Below, in pieces: positions 6,479 to 58,175 of a DNA stretch of 64,000 bases (position 1 is its first letter; each line of letters starts with the position of its first letter). The position numbers and the translations under genes are program-made. Source of the stretch: Bactericera cockerelli (Eukaryota > Arthropoda > Insecta > Hemiptera > Triozidae); the NCBI GenBank assembly GCA_024516035.1, contig CM044957.1, forward strand, positions 45,297,547 through 45,361,546. Direction: 5' to 3'. Under the pieces are notes generated by a model, which saw only the letters and a program-made list of their open reading frames with translations, was not told the origin of the DNA and made no database searches.

Positions 6479-6668
6479 TCCTCCGTGGCTCAGTGGTTAA
6501 GAGCGTTGGTTACTGACACGGAGGTTGCCGGTTCAAATCCCGGCCGGAGCGGAAATTTCTGACCGAAATTTTCCGTTTCCGGAATGGCATGGATGTAAAG
6601 GTAAAGTGTCCTGAAGTAATGCGGAAGCGGTTCCGGGGCACAACTACCTTTAAAAAAAAAAAAAAAAT
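6479..6668 (+). repeat. tRNA-headed SINE family H
   Basis: tRNA-like head TCCTCCGTGGCTCAGTGGTT with box B GGTTCAAATCCC, a body GAAATTTTCCGTTTCCGGAA, ending in a run of 16 A. Only one copy in the window. The poor acceptor-stem pairing and A tail argue for a SINE rather than a tRNA gene. Confidence 0.75.
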
Positions 6669-10090: not shown

Positions 10091-13000
10091 CTAGCTCATA
10101 TCCATCAGGTGAGGGTCTTGTAGGTTGGGCAGGCTGGAATCTTTTTGCATGGACTCGAAAATGGTCTGAAGCTCCGGACTGTTCTTGATCGTCACAACGA
10201 AATCACTGAGGGCCGGGTTCTTGTCTGTCAACAGAAAATCCATTTTTCGTTAGCAATAGTTATCATATTATTTGTGTTAATCACTTTCGTGATGTCACAA
10301 CTACTCTAACTCGCTTTACTAAATCTATGCTGAAACCGGGACTTCTTCAACCACCGACCTCCAGTTTACAAGTCCGCCGCCTTATCGATCAAGCTACTGA
10401 AGTCGGTTCGTTAGCAATAGAATATAATAATATCGTCTTATTCATACTGCCCGATTATGACAATTAAAGTCTCATTACTGCAACAGTAAGCCCAAAACAT
10501 ATTATTATGTGGTAGAAATCCCAAATGGGAGGAACTTGTCATGTCCCGGCTGGGTTTCGAACCCACGACATCTGGAATCTCTAGATTCACAGAGTGCTGC
10601 CTTTACCACTGAGCTACCGGGACAGATATAGTGTCAGTCTGGGTAGGGCCGGAAATGCCAGCCTCACATGTTTGGACAGTTGTGGCGTAACAGTTATGAC
10701 TACTGCGCGTAGTCCAGAGATACTGAGTCCGATTCCCGGTTGGAGCTGGCTTTGCACACTCTGTTCCCTCCGAACACGTTAGGCTGGTATTTCTGACCCT
10801 ACCTAGGCTGGGTGAGGTTAACGTGGGTAGTTGGTACGATTCTAAATGGGAGGATAACTTGTCATGTCCTGGCTGGGTTTTGAACCCGCGACATCTGGAT
10901 TCACAGCGTGCCGCCTTTATCACTGACCTACATATATAGCGATGATACATACAAGTGAAATGTAGGTGACTCACCTGCATCCTGAATAGTGAGCAGAGCC
11001 GCCACGGCTCGCAGTGCCGACCTCTTCAGTTCATCTTGCTTCTCGTACTCCTGCTTCACGGAGTTGGCTTTCACTTTCAGCGTGACAGTGTTGCGAAGAG
11101 GCTCCACAATTCTTTCCAGCCCTGCGAGAGACAAACAGCGGACATTTTGGGTTGGGTGGAAGAGATTGCCATAGGCAATAACCCCGCCCTTTAGTTAGAA
11201 CATATGTATATATTTTGTTTTTTTTTGTTTTGTTTTTTTTCCTTGTTTATATTATTGATATTGTCTATTTTTATTTTACCATTATTTGTCTGTATATATA
11301 TGTTCTTCCTACTAATAAAGAGTTTATAAATAAATAAATAAATAGACATTTACACATCAGACGCCAGACTACTTTTTCGATAGTGTAACATGGTACCGGA
11401 CTACCACTACTAAATTACTGCTCATGCTATCAGAAAACCAGTTAGACATACGTGTAGCCTGGTACCAGCGGAAAGAAATACATTGAAATGTGAGCCTTAT
11501 GGGTGTCACATGTACAGAAATACAAGAGTCTCCTGTGACACTAATAAGGGCCACATGTACCAGGCTACAAGGCACTGTGACCCTTATGTGAGTCACGTGG
11601 CGTCCAATGTGTTAATCAAATTTTATTATACATTTTGAAATGGAACAGAGCGAACAGTGTTAATATTTTTTTTTTTTTTTTTTTTACAATTTTAGACATA
11701 GTGTAATAAAATGCACTGTTTCTCTCAAAATGTAAGCAATCAGACGAACCCAACGAAAAGGGTTGGGTGGAAGAGATTGCCACAGGCAATAACCCCGCCC
11801 TTTAGGTAGGACATTATTGTTATTTTCTTTTCTTTTTTACTTATTTTATTTTTGTCATTTGTTTGTTCATTTTTCTTCTTTCTTTTCTTAATTTTATACT
11901 GTTGCCTGTTTGTCCTCCTAATAAAGCTTTAAAAAAAAAAAAAAAAAAACATCCGTTTCTCCAAAAAGAACTGAGTCGGAGACTTGGTTCTATTTGGAGA
12001 AACGGATGGTTCTACCTTCTGATTGGTTCTCATTCTGCGTCCTTTTGATTAATGGAATATTAAATGAGAACGCCAAATTTTGAATCTGCATTTTAAATTT
12101 ATTTTTGAAATGAGATGAGCTAAGAACCAATACAGCTGATTATAGAAATTTCATCTGTTGTTGATCTCTGAAATGACCTGGTTATATTTTCTTCATATTC
12201 AACCAACCAAATGCCCCAAACATGTAAATACAGCCGTATTTTTCTTTCTAACCAAAGTGGATGCAACTGGAGTAAAATAAACAAACTGGAAGCAATTCTT
12301 CTTTTGGAAGAGGAAAATTCTTCTTCCAGTTAGGTTAATCAAACTGGAAGAAGAAAATTCCCTCTTCCATCCCTTACGAATCCCTTAGAAACAATTATAA
12401 CCAAAGAATTAAGAATACAAATTATTGTCGGCACGGGGGATCGAACCCGGGATCTTCCCATGGCAAGCGAGTGCTTAACCACTGAGCTAATCGCGCGCTC
12501 TCATAGCTTATTTTACATCTAGGCGATGATGTTGATGGAAATAATGATTATTTTCTACAAAAAGAAATAGAAATGTAAAGGATAGTGTAATAATAATTAA
12601 ACAAAAACAAGGCTGCATCCCACGACACAAGGACCATACTTCATAGGTGTGGCCCTTAGTGTGGGATGACGACAGCCAAAAGAAACTAGCATAAGTTCAG
12701 TTAAAAATATTATGAATTATGTAAACTGTCATTGTTATATATATATGCCTTTGGCAATCTCTTCCACCCAACCCTTCGAGTAGTTATTGTTATTGGTCGA
12801 GCATTCCACGACACAAGGACCATACTTCATAGGTGTGGCCCTTAGTGTGGGATGACGACAGCCAAAAGAAACTAGCATAAGTTCAGTTAAAAATATTATG
12901 AATTATGTAAACTGTCATTGTTATATATATTTGAACCATTTACTTGTCATGTATTAAATAAATAAATTGGTCGAGCATTCCGAGGTCGGTCGCTTCACTT

Positions 13001-16000
13001 ACTTTTTTTAGAAAAATATTATTTGTCTGTATATATGTTCTTTGTTCTACTAATAAAGAGTTCTTTAAGTGCTATAGTATCGTGCTAAAAGTATCTTTTT
13101 TGTTTAGGGGGTTCTACTAATAAAGAAGAGTTTCCAAATAACTAAACTCACTCTGCAGCAGCGCGGCCGGCGTCATCTGAGCTAACCTCGCCAGCATGAG
13201 TAGGGGAGCATCTTGATGTCGTAGTGGTCACGCAGGCCGGACATTAACCTCACCCAGCCTGGGTAGAGCCGGAATTTGTCTGTATATATTATGTTCTACT
13301 AATAAAGAAGAGTTTCCAAATAACTAAAAACTTACTCTGCAGCAGCGCGGCCGGCGTCATCTGAGCGAGCCTCGCCAGCATGAGGTAGGTGAGCATCTTG
13401 ATGTCGTAGTGGTCACGCAGCCCCGCCTCCAGGTGGTTCAGGAACTCGAACATGTCCACCCGGTCCAGACACGTGTCCAGCAGCGTGTACATGCACTCGA
13501 AGGCGGCCTTGCGAATGTCCAGCCCATCGTCCACTGTGTGCTTGAACGGGCCCATCTCCACCTCACGGATGAGAGTTTTCTGGGAGACAGAGGGAGAGTT
13601 TTTGTACGTGTTTTAATAATAATATTAATCCATGCTTCACTGTATCAACACACGAAGAAAATCAACCTGCCTTATTTCATTGTAAGAAAGATACAGAAAA
13701 GCGTGTTACTTGAAACATGCCGTATTGTTAGAAAAGTTCTAAGCACTTAGAAAAGAAAGCCCCGCCTCATCTTATGCTCACTACAACCATCACGAAGCTA
13801 TGTTTGTCCTCTCTCTGCAGCTTATGAAGATGTTTCAGATCCCTCTAATTATTATTAACAAATCAATGTTTGCTATATTAGCCCATAGATAAATGTATGT
13901 ACCATTTAAATAAATGAGAAAATATAATTATAATAATAATAATAAAAAACATTGAATACCTGATCGAAACATCACAGAAGTCCGTCATTTTCTCCACAAC
14001 ATCTATTATCCGTAAATGATATCAATTAATTTATGTACATTTGGTTTTTTAAAACCTATGTATGTATGTATACCTCAAATAAATGAGTGAAATCTTTGAT
14101 AATAATACTCTTTAGTGGAAGGTAACCACCAGGCGAGGTTAATGCTAAAAAGATTTTCTACCATCTAACCTAATTAATTTAATGGGAATGGTTTTAATGG
14201 AAATAGAATAAGAAACAGATGGAACTTACTGTTGAAGATTACCTGGGAGGAGAATGTGTGAAAAGGGAATAAGAAACAGAAATATTTTTTTAGACCATTC
14301 TTTTTTTTGTAATTGCTTTGTTCAACGTGGCAGGACTCTCCCAAAGGAGCTCTTCCACCCAACCACCCAACTAATTATTTTTGGAATGGTTCCCCACCCG
14401 GCCACTTTTGCACATTGTGAACTGTGAACCTATTAGTATTATTAGGGTCCTGTTTTCACATCCTCTTAAGAGAGATGGGTTATCGATTTTAACAAGCTAA
14501 GCCTAATGTATATATTTATTTAAATAAATAAATATATACATAATATATGTCCTAACTAAAGGGAGGGGTTGTTGCCTTAGGCAATCTCTTCCACCCAACC
14601 CTAATTAGGTTGCTTGCAACTGTTTTGTAATACACTTTAAACAAATATACGAAATTCAATTTATTCAATTCAATTATTATTATGTACAATAGAAACACAC
14701 GCAATACCTTGACCGCAGTCTCGGCGTACAGCTGCGGCAGGACCGCGTCCAGCAGGTCTATCACCAGGGAGGGCTTGTTGTGCGCCGCAGAGTTGAAGGC
14801 TATCAGAGCCACACGCCGCACGTTCAGGTCGGAATCCTTCAGGGCAGACAGGAAGTCGCCGATGTTCTGTCGCAGGAGAGGGTCGATGCTCTGCGGCTGT
14901 GGGACAGAACGGGGTGGAAGAATAATGTGATATCACCAGTGCACTGGTAGTCAAGTGGTTAAAAAGTGTAAAAAAAAAAAAATTAAATCGATAAAAATAT
15001 ATCATGGTTCGAATTTTACATTTACAATTCCTACAAATTCACACGGCTTTCCAGTAGGGTTTTGTAAGCCATCCCCGTCTTTTTTTTTTCTTCAAAATGT
15101 TAAGACCAAATTTACCAGATAAAATTAATGAACTACCTGATCGGATATGGTAAACTTGACAGCTGTGAGCACGGTGGTCCTCATGAGAGCGGATTTAGAT
15201 TTGAGAGATTCCTGGAGTCGCGGGAGCAGGTTGACGGGGTCAATGAGGGTCAGCTTGCCTAGACACTCGGCCACAACGTTCCTGGTGCCTGGAGCAATAC
15301 AGGGGTTAAAACTGAAGATTAGATATGAAGGCAGTACGGTTTCATGTATGGCCCCGCACTTTTTATTTTTTATTTTTTTTAGATGGGGTTGACAAGAATC
15401 CACTCGGGCTGAAATAGAGGGAATAATACTGGGAGTGAATTTACGGTGGACAAAGAAACAAGGTTGACATGAACAATTGAATAATAATAAAACTCTTTAG
15501 TGGAAGGTAACCACCAGGTGAGGTTAGTGCTCAAAGCATTTTCTACCACCTAACCCTCATAGTCTTATTATTATGTAGTCACAAACTCAAATTAATGAGG
15601 AAAAATTCGTGCACTGGGTGGGATTCGAACCAACGGATCCCTACACTACCTGGATTACCAGACTAGCGCGTTATCCACTTGACTACCAGCTCCCAGTGCA
15701 CATTCTTCATTACACCAGAAACTTACTTTGGGTGTTTGTGTTGTATTGATTTTTCATATTTGTGTATTAATTACTTTTTACTACTTCTGATAATATTTTT
15801 TACCATTATTTTATTTTAACCTTTGTATTTATAGACATTTTTATTGTTGACATTGCAAATAGGGCTATACACTCCTGTACACCAGGTATTTATTATTATT
15901 ATATAAAAAAAGTTTCATTGTATTAGAATAAAAAAAAAAGTTAAAATGAATGAAGTTTTTAAATCAGTTTCAATTTTTGAAGATATTTGAACAATTTTGA

Positions 16001-19000
16001 GTGAGAAAATTGAAAATTTTGCAGCTGCTCAGTCGCCTGCTCAGCCGTAAAAAGGTTTAGGAATGCATAGAATACATAAACACGATGCATGGGACTTAAT
16101 AATCGTAATCGGGCAATATAAATAGGTCGATATTACTTCATGAAATAACAAAATGTAGGTATTTGTTATTTTTAAATTATTTTTAATATTTATTTTTTCT
16201 TCTTTCTTATATTAATATTTATTTTAAGCTCACCTAAAATTAATCATAGTCTTAATGCCAACCATTTGCATTGTAACAAAATTTGATTTTATTACAAATA
16301 AAATCTATCTATCTATGGTTTTGGGCCCACGCGACCTGGTGAAACCGGATAGTAAGTAAGTAAGTATCTGTCTAACTTACCCTCTTCTTGGCATTCACAG
16401 TGCAGGAACAGTTGCGCCCAAATGGCGGGAACAAACTGTTGCAGCTGAGCCACGCCACTGTTGCTGGTGCTCTGCCAGGATATGATCTCCTTGAGAGAGT
16501 GGAGCAGGAGATATTGACGCTTGGGCTGGTTTTCTATCTCCTTCAGGACGAACGGGACATACTGCTGAAGATTACCTGCGGAGGAGCATGTGAGAGAACA
16601 AGACTTAGGGGGGAAATTAAACGGGACATACTGTTGAAGATTACCTGGGGAGGAGCATGTGAGAGAACAAGACTTAGGGGGGAAATTAAACGGGACATAC
16701 TGTTGAAGATTACCTGGGGAGGAGCATGTGAGAGAACAAGACTTAGGGGGGAAATTAAACGGGACATACTGTTGAAGATTACCTGCGGAGGAGCATGTGA
16801 GAGAACAAGACTTAGGGGGGAAATTAAACGGGACATACTGCTGAAGGTTACCTGGGGAGGAGCATGTGAGAGAACAAGACTTAGGGGGGAAATTAAACGG
16901 GACATACTGTTGAAGATTACCTGCGGAGGAGCATGTGAGAGAACAAGACTTAGGGGGACATACTGCTGAAGATTACCTGCGGAGGAGCATGTGAGAGAAC
17001 AAGACTTAGGGGGGAAATTAAACGGGACATACTGCTGAAGATTACCTGCGGAGGAGCATGTGAGAGAACAAGACTTAGGGGGGAAATTAAACGGGACATA
17101 CTGCTGAAGGTTACCTGCGGAGGAGCATGTGAGAGAACAAGACTTAGGGGGGAAATTAAACGGGACATACTGCTGAAGATTACCTGCGGAGGAGCATGTG
17201 AGAGAGCAAGACTTAGGGGGGAAATTAAACGGGACATACTGCTGAAGGTTACCTGCGGAGGAGCATGTGAGAGAGCAAGACTTAGGGGGGAAATTAAACG
17301 GGACATACTGTTGAAGATTACCTGCGGAGGAGCATGTGAGAGAACAAGACTTAGGGGGGAAATTAAACGGGACATACTGCTGAAGATTACCTGCGGAGGA
17401 GCATGTGAGAGAACAAGACTTAGGGGGGAAATTAAACGGGACATACTGCTGAAGATTACCTGCGGAGGAGCATGTGAGAGAACAAGACATAGGGGGGAAT
17501 TAATAGACAAAATCCATTACCTGCGGAGGAGCATGTAAGAGAGCAAGACTTAGGGGGGAAATTAAACGGGACATACTGCTGAAGATTACCTGCGGAGGAG
17601 CATGTGAGAGAGCAAGACTTAGGGGGGAAATTAAACGGGACATACTGTTGAAGGTTACCTGGGGAGGAGCATGTAAGAGAGCAAGACTTAGGGGGGAAAT
17701 TAAACGGGACATACTGCTGAAGATTACCTGCGGAGGAGCATGTGAGAAAGCAAGACTTAGGGGGGAATTAATAGACAAAATCCATTACCTGCGGAGGAGC
17801 ATGTAAGAAAACAAGATTTAGGGGGGGAATTAATAGACAAAATCGAGTGCTTAAGAAGTTATCTTTCCTCATCTGAGACAGTATGCAACGTTTATTTCAT
17901 CTTAGAAGCCAAATAAAAATGGCTTAGGATGATACTGTTGAAGATTACCTGCGGAGGAGCATGTAAGAAAACAAGACTTAGGGGGAATTAATAGACAAAA
18001 TCGAGTACTTGACCCATAAACGCCTGAAATGTTGGAAAACGTTGATGCATTTAAAAAAATTAAATGTCAAAATTTGTGATAGAACAACTGATAGAACTAT
18101 CCAATAAAATTCAGAAGGTAGCAAATATTGTCAACAATGAGAACTATAATGTTTTAAAGTGGTAACATGTACCGTATTGAACTAACAGGTCAGAAACTTG
18201 CACTGCCTCCATCGTTGCCATATGGCAACGCTAGGCGTTAATGGGTTAAGTTATCTTTCCCCATCTCAGACAGTATGCAACATTTATTTCATCTTAGAAG
18301 CCAAATAAAAATGGCTTAGGATGGGTCCTCTGTAAAAAAAAAAAAAATGTGAAAAATAAAACAAATGATTTATTTATTTATTTATTTATACCGCCCTAAG
18401 AAACAAATGGAACTTACTGCTGAAGATTACCTGGGAGGAGAATGTGAGAAAAGGGAATAAGAAAGAATTATTTTTTTTAGACCATTCTTTTTTTTTGTAA
18501 TGGCTTTGTTCGTGGCAGGATTCTCCCAAGGGAGAATCTCCCAAGGGAGAATCCTGCCACGTTTTGGGTGGAAGGGAGCTCTTCCACCCAACCACCGGTA
18601 TTGACAGGTTCCGTATCAGACGAAAACCCCCAGACGAAAAAGAGAGAATTTTCTCAAGACCTAGCTCGTACACTATGAAACTATCACACTTATTTAATAT
18701 ATAATAATAATATCGCCTTATTTATAACGCCCGATTAGGACTATTAAGTCCCATTATTCCAGCAGTAAGCCCAAGACATATTATTATGTGGTAAAAATCC
18801 CAAATGGGAGGATAACTTGTCATGTCCCGGCTGGGTTTCGAACCCGCGACCTCTGGAATCTCTGGATTCACAGAGTGCCGCCTTTACCACTGAGCTACCG
18901 GGACAGATACTGGAGAGCTACTCTATAAATCCCATTTTAGTCTGGTTTATGTGGCAGCACCCCCAAAACATTTTGCCACCGGCCGCGCCTGGTGTTGTAA

Positions 19001-22000
19001 CATACCAACTGCGATGCTGCCAAGAGTATAACTCGCTGCAGATTTGACTTCCTCGGATGTGGGAGTGAAGGCGTTGAGTATCACTTGCTTCAGATCCGCC
19101 ACACTGGTCAAGTCGGTGTGTCTGCCGATCTCACCTGAGAAATTCAGTGGAAAATATAAATTAATAAATAATCCGAAAAATTACGACTCTGCTGGAATGT
19201 GAATCCAGGTCAATAATACGTACATAGGCCAAGCCTACAGCCTGTATTTTTTTTTTTTTTTTTTTTGAAGATTTTTGTCTGACTGGCTGATTTAAAGACT
19301 AAAGATGTCTGGCTGGGTGACTATAAACAGAGAGTAGACCAGCAGTCTGTTATCTACCACCTGATTTTATCAATGTAATTTTTATATCTTTTAACTCTCT
19401 CTTGATATATCATGTACCTTGTACCTAGCACACATACAAAAATGTATATTAAATGCTATAATATAAATTAAAAAAGGTTACTATAAACAGGGAGTAGACC
19501 AGCATTGGCTTGGTTCTGAGGGCCCTTGTTAATTATTAGCCTCCTTGTAAAGACAGTGGTAGAAGTGCTGAGTCATTCCTCCACTGTCTTGCTACCATTG
19601 TTCACGATGACGCCTCCTGATAATGATCATTTAAAGACTTGTGTTTGATAGCCTTTTTTATTTATGTCACAACTACTCAAACTCGCTTTACTAAATTTAC
19701 GCTGTAACCGGGACTTGAACCACCGACCTCCAGGTTACAAGTCCGCTGCCTTATCGATCAAGCTACTCTTACTTACCAATAACAAGCAGAGCAAACACCT
19801 GATGAGCGTCATCCCTGTTCACCTTCAACTCCTTCAGGAACTTCTCCACAACGGGCAGGGCCTCCTTCTGCTGGGTGATGGCCAGCACTGCCACGCACTT
19901 GGCAAGGGACAGGAACGCTTGCTTGTGTAGAACCGCCCCTGGTAGAAGGAATGGCATGAAAATGTTGTAGAGATTTGAATAAACATTCTTCTTAAGTGGA
20001 AAAAAAATAAATAAAGTCACGAGGCTAGGGTAGGCCCCGACATCCAAAGTACAGAGCCGAAAAAATCCGAGCCTGCTGGGATTCGAACCCGGGTCACCTG
20101 GAGTGCAAGCCGAGCATGCTACCGCTAGACCAAGGTGACTACTAAGAAGTCACCGTGGCAGAGTGAGTTTGCGCGCTAGGCATTGCACGCATGGTGACCT
20201 GGGTTCGATCCCCAGCGAAGCAGGAAATTTTCTGCTCTGTTCGGGGTCCACTACCTCGTGAGGAAAAATGAGTAGCTGCTTTGATGTAAAGCAGCGACCA
20301 GTGGCGGAATTATAGGCAAAAAACATGATATTGTCTATAAAAGTGGTAAAAGTTTAAAATTCTGACATAGTAACACAAAGAAAAACCATTATTATTATTA
20401 TTATTATTATATACAAAGTTTCTTTCAAATTGTCTCTCTTATCTACTCTCTGACAGCCTGTAATACTTATATTTCAGGAACCCAATGAAAATTACTATCA
20501 TATGTACATAGTTAGCAATGAATGATAATGGTTCCTGATAGTGTCACTCCTCGCCCATCAGAGGAGAGGCATTCTAAGAGGTGGACAAGTTACAACACAG
20601 ACCACAATAGTCTACCTACAGTAGCTCCTGTTTCATGGATGAAAAAAAAAAAAACAACAGTGAAACAACACTCATTTTGAAGAAAAAAAATTGAGAAGCC
20701 CAGCATTTTGAAGAAAAAAAAATGGAGTAGGTCAGACCATCTGATGAATCTGTTCAAGAACTAGGCTCACCTGTCTACCTACAGTGGCTCCAAGGCTGTG
20801 AAACACTTAAAAAATCATCGAGTAAGTTTTTACTTTCCTTATCCTATAATAAGGAAAGTAATGGAATTATTGGTGGTCAAGTGCACTGGTAGTCAAGTGG
20901 TTGACGCGCTGGTCTTGTAAACCAGGTAGCGTAGGGATCCGTTGGTTCGAATCCCACCCAGTGCATGAATTTTTCCCCATTTAATTTGAGTTTGTGACCA
21001 CATAAAAATAAGACTCTGAGGGTTAGGTGGTAGAAAATGCTTTAAGCATTAACCTCGCCTGGTGGATAAGAGTATTATTATCACATATTATTATAATCAT
21101 TTTCTGATCATTCTGTTTTTTTTATTGTTCTCTTGAAGAACTAATGAGGTCACCTGTGAGCACAGGAGCTATGATCATGTTGAGAAGCTGCTGGAAGCCC
21201 AGTCGCGGGAGATCTGCCTGCACCAGAGCCTTGAAGAACTCCAGCAAGGAGTTCAGGGCGGCTCCCTGCAGTAGGGGAGACTTGGCAATGTGTAACACCT
21301 GGAGAAAGTTTACAATTATTATTATTATTTTACATTTTATTAGATATAAATGGACATTATGTACAATGTAAATAATTATTATTTAAACAATGAAAAAAAT
21401 GGAAACAATATACACACTAAAAGGAAAAAGAATAGATATTTAACAATATTCATTACTGGCTAGATTTACTGCACTTTCCTGATATATAATTTCCTACTGC
21501 ACTTTCCTGATATATAATTTCCCACTGCACTTTCCTGATATATAATAACCTACTGCACTGTCCTGACATATAATTTCCTACTGCACTTTTCTGATTTGGA
21601 TATTTCCTCATTCATATGCTTTCTGAATGATAATAAGACTCAAGAAAACGCCCTCTTTAGGATACACCTTGTATCCAAAAGTCTGCCATTGAAATAACAA
21701 ATGTGATTTGCTTAAAAAATCCGACCATATGAGTGACTTTAAGCACTATTTTTTTAAGTGAGAGGGACAGTAAAACGTTGTATAAGATACTAGAAGAGCA
21801 AGACAAGGTAATGTATATATTTTTAAGTTATCATATTTGTGTTAATCACTTTCGGATCACAACTATTCAAACTCGCTATACTAAATCTACGCTGAAACCG
21901 GGACTTGAACCACCGACCTCCAGGTTACAAGTCCTCCGCCTTATCGATCAAGCTACTGAGGTATGTGACAAGGTAATGTATATTACCTGTGGTAGAATGC

Positions 22001-25000
22001 TCACAGCTGCAGGTTCAACTAAAGCTTTTGGCTGAATTTTGGCAATGCTCGTCAGTAATATCAGAGTCAGCTGGGCGATGTGCAGATCTGATTCGCTCAC
22101 TAAAGCTGCCAGTTCCACGGTCACTTTGTTCAACATCTCTGTAGATATGGCACTCGGATAATTGATCACCAGAGTATCGAGCAACAACAGAGTACTCAAT
22201 TTCAACGCGCGCTGATTTTTCCTCAGGAAACTTCCCAGAATAGGAATGCCGTCTGTGAGAATCGGACGCAGGTCAATACGCAGTGGACTGGCGGCGATCT
22301 TCGTCAGCGCTTTCACTGTGGTGAGTCGCGTGATTTCGTTCCGCAGTCGATCGAGAAGAATCGGCAGACACACTGGCAGCTCCGCCTTGAGATAGTCTCC
22401 GAGGTTGCATATGATCTGTCCCATGCAGGAGATGGCGCGCTCCTTCACTTCCTGATCGATGTCGGCCGCTTTCAGTCGCAGCAGAGTGGACTGGTAGATG
22501 TCCGAGGTGAAGGGGGCGAAGTCGTAGCTGGAAGGGGAGGTGAGCGGACGAATCACCTTCACGAATTGTTGCAGCACCAGCAGCGCCTCTGCCGTGATCT
22601 TGTAGAAGCTGTCCCCCACGGCTGTGATGACAGGGGGGAGGAGGGTGTGGATGTGCGGGTGGAACACGGCGGGGGGGTGGGTGGTCAGCAGGGTGTGGAT
22701 GAACGTCAGCGTGTCTATCTTCATGTTGGACGAGGAGTTCCGGTCCCCCATGCAGTAGACCACGCCGGGTATGAGCGCGGGGAGGGCCGGGGCCAGACAG
22801 CCTGGCAGGGTCTGCACCAGCTCCCGCAGGAGGGCCAAACAGTCCTGCCGGGTGCGCGTGGACTTCTCACGCAGCTGGCCCTGCAGAGCCTTCACCAGGG
22901 CCGGCACCTGGCCGGAGAGGAGGCACAGGGGCGAGTCCTCCTGCTCCATCTGGTTCGGGTCGCCCGAGGAGAGCGGGTGGGCGGTGCGGGTGCCTCTCAG
23001 GAGGCCCATGTACGCGTGGAAGATGTCGCTGCGGACGTTCTCCTCTCTCTCTGGAACACAAGTGGTTCAGCATCATTGTTGCAATATAATAGCATATAAT
23101 ATAAGAATAAACGTTGAATATATTAATAACAACAACTGACATCTCATGATGTTTGCCTATAGACACAGTAGTACATAGTATGGTGATTTTGGACATTCAT
23201 AATGGTGGATGAATTTCTTTTCTAAATAATGGACGCAGCAATTAGGAATTTCCTTCTTTTTTTTAGAAAAGACCCCAGAAATAATGTAATGTAATGCAAC
23301 ATCATTGAATTGGAAACGGAAAGGCCGGTTTCCCACTGAGTGCAACATTTTCTCACAATAAGATCTCACAATATTGATGATACTAAGGGTTGGGGGAAGA
23401 AATTGCTACAGGCAATAACCCCACCCTTTAGGTAAGACACAACCTTTATTTTCTTCTATTATTTTTGTTTTTTTGTTCAATCTATATTTTTCTCTTCAAT
23501 TCATACTGAAAATTATTGTTCATTGTCTTACTAATAAAGAATGATAATCCTCATAGGTAGGTAATAGTAAAACTGAGGTATCATAAAAAAATAAATAATT
23601 GTTTCAAGCTCAGAGGGGCAATGCGGCCAGCATCCTTGGCTCATTACCAGATGCTGGTCAGATGAAGGAAATTTTTTTCCTATAAAAAATGTTATCATCT
23701 TGTTGATTTGAAATAAAACTCCACCAATTTAACACATTGCGTGCCACGTCACACTCTAGAGTGCGACAGTGCACTTGCCATTCTGACTCTGTCACACTGT
23801 ACAGTGGGACACCATGTTGTTTCTTTAAACGTGTGACATGGTGTCTGGAGAAACATGAAATTAAAATTCCCTTGCACTTCTGTCCCTGTCACACTCTACA
23901 GTGTGACCAGAGAAATTGACCAAAATTCGGCTGGTCCCTGGGGAAACATTCACAAATAAGGCTTGGCACGCAATGTGTTAAATGCTCAGAATATATTTTT
24001 ACCTTTGAATCTTGCAATGAGCGGGGGCGACACGAGTCGGTACATATCGGCGATCAGGTCCCGGCGAGTCGTGATGATCGCCTCGAGACACTTGGCTGCG
24101 GCGCGTCGCACTTTCCAGCTCATGTCATCGTCATCCGAGTACTCGTTGTCTTCGCCTTCGTCGTCTCCTGACGAACAACAACACAATGCCCTGTTTATAC
24201 ATTCTCAAGGGGTTTTTTTTTTTATTATTAAACAAGTTGGATCAAGTTTTATTTACAAAATAATGACATAGAATATATACATACATAGATATTAAAATTA
24301 AGAAAACAAAACTTGATCAAGGGCGGTGCTAATGCCAACGGCATTCTCTTCCGTTTTTTTCGTTTAAAGTCTGTCCCGGTAGCTCAGTGGTAAAGGCGGC
24401 ACTCTGTGAATCCAGAGGTTCCAGAGGTCGTGGGTTCGAAACCCAGACGGGGCATGACAAGTGATCCTCCCATTTGGGTTTTTTACCACATAATAATATG
24501 TCTTGGGCTTACTGCTGGAATAATGGGACTTTAATAGTCCTTATCGGGTAATATAAATAAGGCGATATTATTATTATCATTATTTCAACTGCATGGTCAA
24601 ATCACTCCTGGAAACACCCCAAGCCCAAGCTTACCTTAGGACTCAACACGCTAAGCTTTAAGGGCTGAATAGCTTAGGTGCACCCAGAATGAGGACCTCG
24701 CGTGCTTGGACTTAAAGTGTTCTCTAGATATCACAACGATGGTGTTACCTTCCAAACGTGCTACCCACATTAACCTCACCAAGCCTGAGTTGGCCCGGAG
24801 TGACAGCATCACAAAGTTTTCAACTCACTGGACGTTCCCTCACCAATGGGAAGAGAAGATTAATGTTGTTGTTGTTGTTAACGCTATTCAACTTCAATCA
24901 GTTAGTTTCTATGTCAAGGAAAATCGCTGCTGCTCTGGGTTCTGTCCATAAGGAGGTGGGGTCCAGGCTTGTTGGATTTGCCGTACATTCAAAGAAAGAG

Positions 25001-28000
25001 GAATGATGTATTATTGTTGAACTTTTGTATATTTTTTTAATAAAAATAATTAGTTTTGAAAAAAAAAAAAAATACGAGCAAGCAATGAAATATTCTTGGC
25101 GCTTTTGACATTACCTTCCTCTTCCTCTGTGTCCATCCCATCACCTCTGTCTCCTGAGTCCTCGTCTTCGTAGTTGTAGTTGGGATCATACGTGATGTAG
25201 CCAAGACACAACTCTGTGATCTGAAAGCCAAGACATGGTACATAATATGATAAAATTGAGCTGAAAGCCAAGACATGGTACATAATATGATAAAATTGAT
25301 TATTATAATATTATTGAAAACAAAATATTTATGTATTACATGACAGTAAAATGAGAAATACATTTATAATGTTTATTGTATGACAGTAACATTTTCCATG
25401 TTTCATAATATTTTAACTTAGGTAACTTAAATTATGCTGATTTTATTATCTATTAGCTGTCATGATCCCACACTAAGGGCCACACCTATGAAGTATTTAT
25501 TTCTTCATTTATGTTATTCTCACAATTTTGCCTCTTTCTTCATAAAAATCAAAGTTCATGTGTAGCCCTGAAAGCATTGGCAGAGGCTTGACTTTAACGT
25601 AGAAAAAATAAATATATAAATCAAACAAAAAGTACACTGCCAATTATGGACACAATACTTCTTTGTGAATGGTCATCAAAATTTTCAAATTTTACTATCG
25701 CTAGAATCAGATATTTTTTTTACTGAATCACTTACATTTACAAAAGTTCTCAACCGATTCTATTCAACCGTTTTCCCTACATTCTAGATTCTACAAAAAA
25801 TTCTGTATCGGCAAGTGGTGGACTTTCTTTTTTGTCCAAAATTTCGGATTTTCTTGAAAATCAGAGCTCTATCAAAATTTATTTAAAAAATAATTATAAA
25901 TGCACAATGTAAAATGCTAACACGCATATACATAAAAATTTCATCAAAATCGGGTGTACCGTTCACGAGATATCAGCGTTTAAGTAAAAAGTTAAAAAGT
26001 CCAGAAATACGAAAAAAATTGAAATCGAAGAAATATTTTTTTTTTTTTTTTCAAAAACAAACACAATACTTCCGATTTCTAACATTAGAAATTTTCGGAA
26101 GTTAGTAATAGATCCACTTACGTTACGCCAGCCTCCGTGGCGTAACGGTTATGACTACTGCCCATAGTCCAGAGATCCCGAGTTCGATCCCCGGTCGGGA
26201 CAGAATTTTCTTCGAAAAGTCTGTCCCCTCCAAACACGTGAGGCTGGCATTTCCGGCCCTACCCAGGCCGGGTGAGGTTAATGTGGGTAGCTGGTACGAT
26301 TCCCAGCGAATGGAGGATAAAACCCCCGTCCTGACTATCTATCTCAAATCAGGACATTAAAACCAAATAGAATCAACTGGTCACAATAGATCTAATTAGG
26401 TCGCAGTGTTAATTGTTAGGGTTTCACTGAAAACCCTGCAACCGGATCAGATAATAATAATAATAAACTTACCGCTTGAATGTGTGGGGTGATCTCCTTG
26501 GGACAGCGGTGTACAATGGCTTCGCATGCTTGAAGACAGAACTCCCTCAACTCATCATCTTCCTCCTGACTGTATTTTAATATGAGGGGCACCACGCGCT
26601 CTATATGATCCGCAAACCTGGGAGATTTTTATTTATTAATGTTCACTTTAATTATTATTATTTTTTTTTTAAACATCAACAATTAATTAAGAACAAGGAA
26701 AAAACTTATAAATATATCTATATATAAAGAAATAGAACAAAATTTAGGCATTCTCTGCCACTTTACCCTTAGACATGATCAATCAATAAAGATATTAATT
26801 TTTATGTCTCTTTTGTGCTGCTAGACCAACTGTGGTACTTTTGTGGTCATAGAGATAGATTATAGCCATATTTTTTATTTATTGGATAGTTTAAATAAAT
26901 AAGAGCGCACGAATAGCTCAGTGGTTAAACACTCGCCTGCCATGCGGAAGGTCCCGGGTTCGAACCCCCGCGCCGACGAAAATTTGTATTCAAATTATGG
27001 TTACATACCTTCGGGTGCGCTAGTGTTGACCCAGCACCTAAATGGGAAGTATTGTGTCACTTCTCGTTCATCAAGGAGGATGTGCAAGCTACAACACAGA
27101 CCACAAGCATCAACACTAGCTCCTGCTTCATGGTTACAAAAAAAGTCTCTCGAACTTTCATTAAACGGACATTCCATTTTTATTATTTAAAGTCCCTTGC
27201 TCGAAATCAAAAAGAATCACATCACGTCACAAACCTGTGTCCTGCTTGTCGACACATGGCGGCAAAACATTGAATGTAGGTGCGATTGGTTGAGGTGCTC
27301 TTGTTAGTTGTCAGGCCTTCAAGTAGGAAATCAATCAGTTTAGTATACAGTTGCTGGTTGCAGAACATGACTAGATGACTGAGAGCAACAATTGTTCTGG
27401 GGAATAAGAAAAATAGAACACAATAATTATTAGATACATATCAATGTTTTCAAAGGTTTGCTTGAGATTTCAAAAATAAGATTTCTAATATTAGGACTTT
27501 ACTTCCAATAACTTCCTAATATTAGAAATTGGAAGAATTGTGTTAGCTTTGTAAAAATAATAATATATTTTTGTTCCAATTTCAATTTTTATCATTTTTT
27601 TTAGTTTATAGAAATGTGCTTTATGATGCATAAGATTCCTGAGAAATTTTTAGCTAACCTTTGAGTCACCAGTGGGTTTTGGTTCTGTTCCCATTCCTAA
27701 TATAATAAGCAAAGTCATGTGATGTTTACACCAGATTTTTTCAAATATGTTTCAGTTTTGCTCTTATCTTTTATACAAAGAGATTGTGTTCTGAAAAGTT
27801 GTCTGCTATGCCTTCACCTACCATTGTTCAGACTACAATCTTTTAAAAACTAATGTACCTAATCACTGTGCCACCAAAGCTGGCTATTGATTTTGTTTTG
27901 GGGACAGAAATTCTTACCTCTTTCGTACAGCTTGCCTGGGAGAAGATAGTTGAGGTAAAAGTGCAGTCAAGATAACAAAGTGGAAACTAGGAAGAAGTGC

Positions 28001-48654: not shown

Positions 48655-50800
48655 TTATACCTGAATGTATGGTTTACATTCATCTACTAACTCTGCTATA
48701 CCACCCCATTTTAGTTTATAAGATCTTGTTCTCCATTTTATAACAGGATCCCATATTGATGTGAAAAACACCCAAGGCCCAAGAACCTCTCGGAAAAGCC
48801 AGCAAACAATAAGGTGAAATTTACTAAATGGCAAAGAACCATTCTGAATAACTGAAATAAGTATGGCATCTAACAAGAACCAAGCAAGAATGTGAACCAA
48901 ATAAAATACAGCTGCATCTATTTGAAAGAGAAAGGAAACAGCCCAACTGGCACAAGCTCCCAATATAAGGCACTCGGACAGTGGTTCACAAACCAAGGTG
49001 AATGGTGCCATGGCAATCCTCAGCTTGACCCATCTACTTAATCTGTTTTTAAAACTAGTAACATCACAGTGACCTGAATTCTGCCATGCTGGTTGTCCAC
49101 TGATGGTGATCTTCCACCCTTGTTCAGATACTGCTCGAGCAAAGAAAAGGTCTTCTGCTAAGTAGGAAGAAAATGCTTTTATTCCACCCAAATCTTCAAA
49201 TATTGATTTTCTAGTCAATGTAGACATACCTGCAACAAAAGACACATTTAAAATAATCAGCACATAAGGTTAGCAAAATAATAATAATATTAAATTATTT
49301 ATACTGTCCAATTAGGACTAATGAGTCTCATCATTCCAGCAGTAATTCCAAGAAATATTATGTGGTCAAAATCCCAAATGAGACAGTAACTTATCAGATC
49401 CAAACTGGGTTTTGAAACCACAACCATTTGGAAAAAGGGAGGAAAATTTGACTATATTTTTTTTCTATTGAAATACCTTTGAAAGCCTTTTATTATTGCT
49501 GAATCAGAAAAAAGCAGACATGTGTTTGTGACGTCATATTTAGTAAGTTAAATTTTTCTCTCTACATGTTTCTTACGGAACTTTTTTTCTAACAAATTTT
49601 TCATTATGTTTTGGGTAATCTCCCTCTGATTTTTTGGAATTTATATCAGGAATCAATTGGGGTTTTTTCCCAGGGATTTTTTTGTATTCTAGACTTTGAA
49701 TGTTTGTTACTCATAATATAGTTCCTTTAAAATTTTGTTAGGAATTGTTTCATGTATTCAGAATTATTTAAAAGAAATGATTTTCAAATACCAAGGGTAA
49801 TTTTTTTTTCACACTGACCAAATGTAATTTTTTTTTATAGTGAAAACAAATTGACTCATATATTCATATGACATGTTATTCCATTTTAATCCTGAAGTGA
49901 GGTACAATTATATTAATAGTTACTGACAAATTAAAACCTTACAAAACTTATAAAATCTGCAAAATAATGCCTCTATAGGTATACAAATCTTGGCCAAGTA
50001 CCTATAAGGCTACATAATTCAGTAAATCATCTTACCCCACATTACCTTCATTCTCCGATCTCTCATCTAAAGCTATAATATCTCATAATTAGTAATTATC
50101 CCCATCTCTTATACTGAATCTTTCATAAAATGAACAGATACTTGGTTGATTACTCACCTGTGTGACAAGGTATCTGCAGAAAATTAGCTGCCAAGTAAAT
50201 TCTTGCTTGAGCTGTTCCAAAATATGTCTTTTCTAAAGCAGCAGCAAATCCTTTTCTATCCCATGTGAAGGGCATCTGATGTACAAGTCCAACATCAGGC
50301 TTCAAATGATTAACCATGTCAAGCAATGTATCCTCCTTCATTCGAATCCCACTGTCTGATATCAGAATTAATTCATGTTTGGCTGCTTTGTATCCTGGCT
50401 GCATGTTATTGATTTTTGGATTCACGCCTACTACTTGACCACCTATGAACACACTAGTATCTACATTTGGATATTTTTTACACAATTTTTCAACAAGAGG
50501 CACTGCAGCATCAAGATCATCTTCAAAACAGAAGCATATTTCATATTTTGGATAAGACATGGTGAAAAATGTCTCTAAATTAGTGTAGAGATTAGGATCA
50601 ACTCCTAGCAGAGGTTTGATGATGGTAACTCCAGGGTAAGGCATTTCTTGAGGTAATAGAGGAACTTTAGGATGTAACTTGTATTTACCATAAAAGATAG
50701 CTGCCAAATGTATAAACCACATCCCAAACCAAAACACAAAGAAAAACACTGCAAATCCACTCAGTGTGTACATTAGGGAGGTTAAAGAAACGTCCAACAT
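48655..50800 (-). CDS. UGCG: Ceramide glucosyltransferase (GlcT/UGCG)
   Basis: Two coding exons, 50158-50800 and 48655-49229, joined in phase (codon split G|GT); 405 aa (human 394). It transfers glucose from UDP-glucose to ceramide on the cytosolic face of the Golgi, the first step of glucosylceramide-based glycolipids. GT21 signatures: N-terminal membrane anchor about residues 8-34 (GFAVFFFVFWFGMWFIHLAA); VTIIKPLLGVDPNLYTNLET; D1 at D94 (CFEDD); FIGGQVVGVNPKINNMQPGY; D2 at D149 (ISDSGIR); D3 at D241 (YLAEDLFFA); and the RxxRW acceptor motif at 277-281 (RLSRW). C-terminal hydrophobic segments follow. An in-frame stop upstream supports the chosen ATG. The C-terminal tail (CKPYIQV) differs from vertebrates. 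Confidence 0.95.
49280..49440 (-). repeat. SINE E remnant (minus)
   Basis: ATACTGTCCAATTAGGACTA, CATTCCAGCAGTAATTCCAA, GGTTTTGAAACCACAACCAT. In the UGCG intron. Confidence 0.6.
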
Positions 50801-51257
50801 TTCTGTCGATTTTGCTGGTGCTATCTAATCATTACACTTAATTTTCTTATTGGTTTATTTAGTTACATTTAAAAATTAAATTACAAGGAAAATAGGAAAA
50901 GTCCTTTCAATTTGTTACATAAATTATTACTCATCTTTACTGATTACATAAATTATGTTTTAGAAGCTAACAACTAACATCTTTTCTGAAAAAAATATAT
51001 GGAAATATATACAGGGTTCGGCGAAATCTTTAGACTCTCTTTTTGTTTGTTCAAAAATCCCTTTTTCTCTTTTTTTATAAAGTAATCTTCCCTTTCTGCG
51101 ATATGAAAATTATGAAGATTTTATTAACCAAAATGGATTTATAAAATTCTTGCTTCCATTTCTTTATTCCTGGTTAAGTTTTCATTTTTCCATTGTTTAG
51201 CTTTCAAAGTACCGAAACATATTTTTCTTTCACGAAAAAAAACCGAACCTGGATTTT

Positions 51258-57969: not shown

Positions 57970-58175
57970 CATCATCATAGGGTAGCACATCATCATCGTG
58001 AACGATGGTAGCCAGACAGTGGAGGAATGACTCAGCACTTCTACCACTGTTTTTACAAGGAGGCTAATAATTGACAAGAGCCTCCAGAACCAATCCAATG
58101 CTGGTCTACTCTCTGTTTATAGTCCCCCAGCCAGACTGCTGGTCTACTCCCTGTTTATAGTCCCCCAACCAGAAT
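57970..58175 (-). repeat. Hairpin-rich repeat with two 38-bp units (minus)
   Basis: CATCATCGTGAACGATGGTA, GACAGTGGAGGAATGACTCA, CTACCACTGT, then GGTCTACTC.CTGTTTATAG twice 38 bp apart. Confidence 0.85.

Follow-up and report, generated by a model that had tools for sequence, protein, structure and literature searches.

A minisatellite of 69-bp units over the intron 12/exon 13 junction of CAND1, probably a tolerated field of decoy acceptors

Tandem duplication of a splice junction is already known to make introns or isoforms. Introns that arose from tandem arrays were reportedly the subject of Zhuo et al. 2007, to go by its title. In potato RdRp, tandem duplication of a segment spanning the 3′ end of an intron and the start of the following exon has given rise to a new intron, as attested by 106 RNA-seq reads; the branch site, tract and AG came with the duplicated segment, and a cryptic GTAAG in the upstream copy of the exon was recruited as donor (PMC4974935). 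Human genes in segmental duplications carry internal tandem repeats at exon–intron boundaries, minisatellites averaging four units of 30 bp in recent paralogues, which create new or alternative introns and length variants, with a repeat-retaining transcript also supported in 66% of the intron modifications (PMC2812944). Fission yeast has gained introns consisting of 24-nt tandem units of exonic sequence, each with a proto-splice site (PMC3629103) that reads AGGC in that report and AGGT in the account given by PMC4974935. Single duplications of an AG/GY proto-splice site within coding exons of Drosophila turn the intervening stretch into an intron of the size of the duplication (PMC2891723). 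Lastly, Drosophila recursive sites and RS-exons juxtapose an acceptor and a donor at AG/GT, and splicing into them regenerates a donor; they number one to few per intron, are conserved and lie in very long introns (PMC6110457, PMC8605326), and of two such competing donors the stronger usually wins (PMC8605326). Among the titles and opening lines of abstracts surveyed on repeats over splice junctions, none describes an array like that of CAND1.

We scanned a window of 64 kb (C3:45297547-45361546) from an assembly of 565 Mb in 1032 contigs, in which CAND1 lies on the minus strand with 17 coding exons, collinear and on one strand, between 29625 and 10091. The exons were placed by comparison with human CAND1, of which residues 15-1225 were matched; no exon was found in this way for the first ~14 residues, and for the second placed intron the choice of acceptor was judged ambiguous. 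Exons are numbered as in the original prediction, whose exon 13 is number 12 of the 17-exon model. In the spliced model exon 13 (16381..16575, minus strand, 195 nt) starts GTAATCTTCAGCAGTATGTCCCGTTCGTCC, and its protein matches CAND1 in the PDB over residues 886-936, which together with the collinear exons bears out the identity proposed for the gene. Exon 12 (19006..19134, minus strand, 129 nt) ends GTTG|GTATGT in phase 1, and the 2430-nt intron 12 (16576..19005, minus strand) contains the array and an older copy of the junction. The gene model predicts the AG at 16576..16577 (minus strand) as the genuine acceptor of exon 13, with 16576 the last base of the intron and 16575 the first of the exon, as had been proposed.

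The array is real, chance being excluded by the repeat itself. TRF reports it at 16551..17833 (minus strand) with a period of 69, as originally described; the units are of 69 bp, with some of 56 or 61 bp, and include 19 acceptors counting the real one. Twenty AG|GTAAY junctions run along the minus strand from 17949 to 16576, namely the exon 13 acceptor and 19 decoys, spaced from distal to proximal by 160, 61, 69, 69, 69 and 61 bp, then seven times 69, once 56 and five times 69. Eighteen of the decoys fall within 16553-17833. Sixteen of these include 22-25 nt from exon 13, in agreement with the predicted 16 or so extra copies, and the other two (17521 and 17789) have GTAAT alone. The predicted make-up of the unit is likewise confirmed, with 25 nt of exon 13 and 44 nt of intron. 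The intronic part comprises 32 nt from the native end of the intron, plus ~12 nt (TAATTTCCCCCC) that match a dispersed element at its end. All 20 junctions keep the AG, the pyrimidine tract and the GTAAY donor, giving GT...AG stretches bounded by repeats as in intron gain by tandem duplication, and the head-to-tail 69-bp units fall within the range of about 10-100 bp that defines a minisatellite. That 69 is a multiple of three is an event of about one in three and unremarkable. The 69-bp units are joined at CCCGTT|TAATTT, whereas in the two 61-bp units (17460..17520 and 17728..17788, minus strand) a join GTAAT|GGATTTTG replaces the exon piece. The 56-bp unit lies at 16921..16976 (minus strand) and breaks the frame for more distal acceptors. 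A detached copy of the junction (17932..17991, minus strand, acceptor 17949) is followed by a 76-bp block that is repeated at 18248-18323.

By analogy, the closest known kind to this array is the intron-forming tandem duplication of potato RdRp, in which the duplicated segment has the same composition. In CAND1, however, the candidate donor is the GTAAY that opens the exon copy, exactly at the acceptor, rather than a cryptic GTAAG, and the potato case is one duplication proven by RNA-seq whereas CAND1 has about 20 copies (PMC4974935). The human boundary repeats are alike in being minisatellites at exon–intron boundaries, but the CAND1 array has units of 69 bp and about 20 junctions, its units keep the parental acceptor and, unlike the human paralogues, no copy at another locus was found in the assembly (PMC2812944). 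The fission-yeast units are exonic whereas the CAND1 repeat is made from an existing intron–exon junction (PMC3629103), and the Drosophila AG/GY duplications are single and within coding exons where CAND1 has an array at the end of an existing intron (PMC2891723). CAND1 junctions share the juxtaposition of acceptor and donor with the recursive sites of flies, yet recur each 69 bp in an intron of 2.4 kb (PMC6110457, PMC8605326). In our judgement, what is new in CAND1 is the copy number, the presence in every unit of an acceptor with an abutting donor, and the element-derived piece.

A fragment of the dispersed element occupies 17819..17888 (minus strand). There its 3′ end (CTCGATTTTGTCTATTAATTC-CCCC) directly borders the native end of the intron, some 32 nt upstream of the acceptor. 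Overall, this 3′ end reads CTCGATTTTGTCTATTAATTTCGCCCC or nearly so; two distant copies have 132 columns in common at 91%, and relatives occur at eight places outside the window, on contigs C2, C3, C5, C6, C10, C11 and C99, with more at several places inside it. The tandem segment thus consists of the element end, the native intron end and the first 25 nt of exon 13. The older copy of the junction at 18397..18534 (minus strand, acceptor 18431) has a degenerate exon part with an in-frame TAA and is without the element-derived C tract; a 90% copy of it, over 143 columns, lies at 14209..14349 (minus strand, acceptor 14243), within the intron that follows exon 15. From these sequences we infer an order of events in which a duplication of the bare junction would have been followed by insertion of the element and then by tandem expansion.

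A core pattern of the array, searched through the 565-Mb assembly with up to three mismatches, gave 18 matches, all at the CAND1 locus (the real junction, the 16 exon-type decoys and 17949), and none with a reversed control, though the pattern overlooks the known copies at 18431, 14243, 17521 and 17789, and similar ones elsewhere would escape it too. Similarly, among the best candidates scored, a query of 18397-18480 against the assembly found solely 18431, 14243 and places in the array (15 matches). The idea that the array or its junction is itself a dispersed element is therefore unsupported, since the matches of both pattern and query are confined to CAND1.

We also considered whether junctions are special targets of duplication in this gene. 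Among 34 exon ends examined, three have local copies, one of them being the exon 13 acceptor, compared to 60 of 489 tiles across the gene span that have a local copy on the same strand (24 of them outside 16450-18050, a count that includes tiles of the junction copy near position 13.2 kb), and there is thus no clear enrichment. Separately, the acceptor of the CAND1 exon at 25115-25220 is also duplicated in tandem (25217-25299, 40-bp unit, 97%), reading TTTCAG|CTCA and then TTTCAG|ATCA, with a unit that is not a multiple of three. At 13110-13238 the intron following the exon at 13336-13579 contains a copy of that exon's 3′ end and donor (131 columns, 94%); the exon part of the copy has a gap of one base, and GTGAG stands in place of GTAAG.

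Several other features of the window were recorded. A nearly identical 38-bp tandem unit (TGCTGGTCTACTCCCTGTTTATAGTCCCCCARCCAGAC) occurs at 2202-2418 and at 58099-58173, 56 kb apart, and a 28-bp minisatellite of 4.6 copies (21467-21595) lies upstream of the acceptor of the CAND1 exon at 21154-21298. Within intron 12, a repeat at 18701-18907, which by eye looks headed by a tRNA, is 95% like 24370-24577 and 90% like 10416-10628; Rfam tRNA matches are found at 20883-20965, 10542-10623 and 6481-6549. Minus-strand open reading frames at 48658-50824 presumably belong to a ceramide glucosyltransferase.

Assemblies are known to go wrong at tandem repeats, and the array could in principle be a false expansion of a shorter repeat. 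We consider this very improbable, for the units differ from one another in a mosaic of seven variable columns, 56-bp and 61-bp kinds are present, the locus lies within a contig of 53 Mb, and no second place for the array was found in the assembly. The 17 exon-type junctions (17521, 17789 and 17949 being dropped from this count) show a mean pairwise difference of 3.8% over 54 columns, which speaks for a young array. Differences between units correlate with their distance (r 0.26, permutation P 0.012); as the mean differences are flat over lags 1 to 7 (1.6-2.0), with neighbours not clearly more alike, the correlation arises from longer separations, and local duplication is weakly supported as the route of expansion. 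The haplotype of the real junction is that of 17391, 17046 and 16977 and differs from that of its neighbour 16645. Since it is shared with remote units and not with the adjacent one, units have probably been exchanged.

What the array might do to the protein depends on the reading frame. Exon 12 ends in a phase that every copy accepts, as had been predicted, the final G of GTT G| joining the GT AAT or GT AAC of each copy to complete a Gly codon. The accompanying claim that the frame stays open across the array does not hold: the 56-bp unit and the two 61-bp units break it, none of the spacings 56, 61 and 160 being divisible by three. When a single acceptor is chosen the CAND1 frame is open for six of 20, namely 16576 and the five proximal decoys (16645..16922, minus strand, with AG ends at 16645, 16714, 16783, 16852 and 16921). 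The predicted insertion of n × 23 residues without a frameshift therefore stands for these five, with n from 1 to 5 and at most 115 extra residues, and fails for the other 14 of the 19 decoys, which lead to stops. The 23-residue translation given for the unit applies to most copies, while some read SPG rather than SAG. With one further internal removal between junctions allowed, 323 of 1330 enumerated combinations are open, 19 of which give the canonical mRNA.

The original prediction offered the array as either a tolerated decoy field or a source of length isoforms, and the two remain live readings. In the second, at least one proximal decoy would be used substantially, yielding CAND1 with 23n residues before the HEAT helix of exon 13; we regard it as unlikely. 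It has in its favour that the five proximal units are all of 69 bp, in frame and open, but frame-breaking units show no sign of being kept away from exon 13, the first break, at the sixth of 18 units, being at an ordinary place (P 0.35), and 14 decoys end in stops. Intron sequence, moreover, supplies 15 of the 23 residues. Of five distinct variants seen in the 69-bp units, four are synonymous when read in the frame of CAND1 (26% expected, nominal P 0.018), which also speaks for insertion, but this is a post hoc test on a tiny number of variants, in units that exchange sequence, within an array whose frame is broken by three units. Coding selection on the repeat peptide is therefore at most hinted at.

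Splice signals were scored with rough matrices built from 15 introns of CAND1 (14-15 sites), leaving out the ambiguous intron 2 and, when array junctions were scored, the array intron. The real acceptor scores 7.59 and the array decoys 5.15-10.19. Four of the 19 decoys lie above the real site, 16645, 16714 and 16852 at 10.19 each and 17659 at 7.76; the first three, which carry CCCAG acceptors, are in frame and again favour the use of proximal decoys for longer isoforms, with stronger sites making up three of the five in-frame decoys versus one of the 14 others (hypergeometric 0.037, post hoc). The synonymous lean and these stronger in-frame decoys are both faint signs that translation of proximal units may occur, with the proviso that units exchanging sequence are not independent. 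Branch-like motifs were inspected in eight copies, array copies having TTAAT at −42 or −40 and, at −16, either CTCAC or CTTAC; five of the eight have a further AG at −30, which 17789, 18431 and 14243 lack. The real acceptor has the highest pyrimidine fraction (0.79) among 16 acceptors compared. Four RNA folds set against shuffles gave no signal of structure (z 0.19, −0.68, 0.08 and −1.38).

The donor halves of the junctions score 8.24-10.17, against a median of 5.93 for CAND1's own donors. The commonest, CAG|GTAATC, scores 9.28 and is exceeded by three of 15 own donors, and CAND1 uses CAG|GTAATA and AAG|GTAATG elsewhere. With each copy carrying a good donor, extra units could be spliced out of the mRNA again even after use of a distal acceptor. 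These donors, like the copies at 17949, 18431 and 14243 and the element end in the unit, had no place in the original prediction. By its sequence form, each unit is a candidate GT...AG mini-intron whose junction resembles a ratchet point of recursive splicing, a good acceptor being followed directly by a good donor, as judged with small matrices from the gene itself. It is conceivable, though decidedly doubtful, that intron 12 is removed stepwise, exon 12 first joining a distal junction and the regenerated or internal donors then re-splicing in 69-nt steps to 16576, which would be harmless because every step takes out whole units. For this counts that each of the 20 array junctions is an AG|GT whose acceptor and donor both exceed the thresholds used: the two strands of the 64 kb contain 460 AGGT sites, and 30 of these pass an acceptor score of 5 and a donor score of 8, of which 20 are array junctions and two more are 18431 and 14243. 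A length of 69 nt is, besides, a spliceable intron size in many animals. On the other hand, the donor regenerated by joining to exon 12, TTG|GTAATC, scores 4.48, lower than 13 of the 15 own donors and higher than two, and recursive splicing in flies is apparently confined to very long introns (PMC6110457), and intron 12, at 2.43 kb, is not one. A combined possibility, in which the typical unit would be at once a complete mini-intron and an in-frame exon piece of 23 codons, with each junction serving as both acceptor and donor, so that the array cleans itself stepwise by re-splicing and leaks a ladder of CAND1 forms that depends on copy number, is also quite unlikely. As a separate observation, the start of exon 12 (19135) reads AG|GTGAGA, donor-like after a high-scoring acceptor (13.6 and 10.2, from matrices that include CAND1's own sites), and in sequence form the exon fits an expressed recursive-splicing exon.

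The reading we prefer, and think probable on the sequence evidence, is that of a minisatellite of recent origin that started from a 3′ splice junction already in place, forming a tolerated decoy field from which mostly canonical mRNA would be made. Units would have arisen through unequal exchange or slippage, without a role of their own, and the spliceosome would face about twenty roughly equivalent acceptors. Exon definition from the strong donor of exon 13 (9.95, against 4.48 for the donor regenerated at the 5′ end of that exon) would favour the nearest of them; preference for the real acceptor over the four higher-scoring decoys is assumed here. Distal choices could be re-spliced, since junctions of neighbouring units form GT-AG introns. 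For both reasons the mature mRNA would be mostly canonical. Choices beyond the nearest decoys that were left un-re-spliced would run into premature stops and be lost. A minor fraction may use the nearest decoys, adding 23, 46, 69, 92 or 115 residues before the HEAT helix of exon 13. Against a pure decoy field we count potato RdRp, where the upstream acceptor is used (PMC4974935), and the potato and human precedents together argue against complete silence of the array.

With about twenty near-identical natural acceptors in one intron, the choice of the spliceosome between equivalent tandem 3′ splice sites could be read from long-read cDNA, and the same array could show whether re-splicing hides distal acceptor choices. 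The CAND1 locus also presents, in many copies, the kind of junction duplication that has been proposed as a route to new introns.
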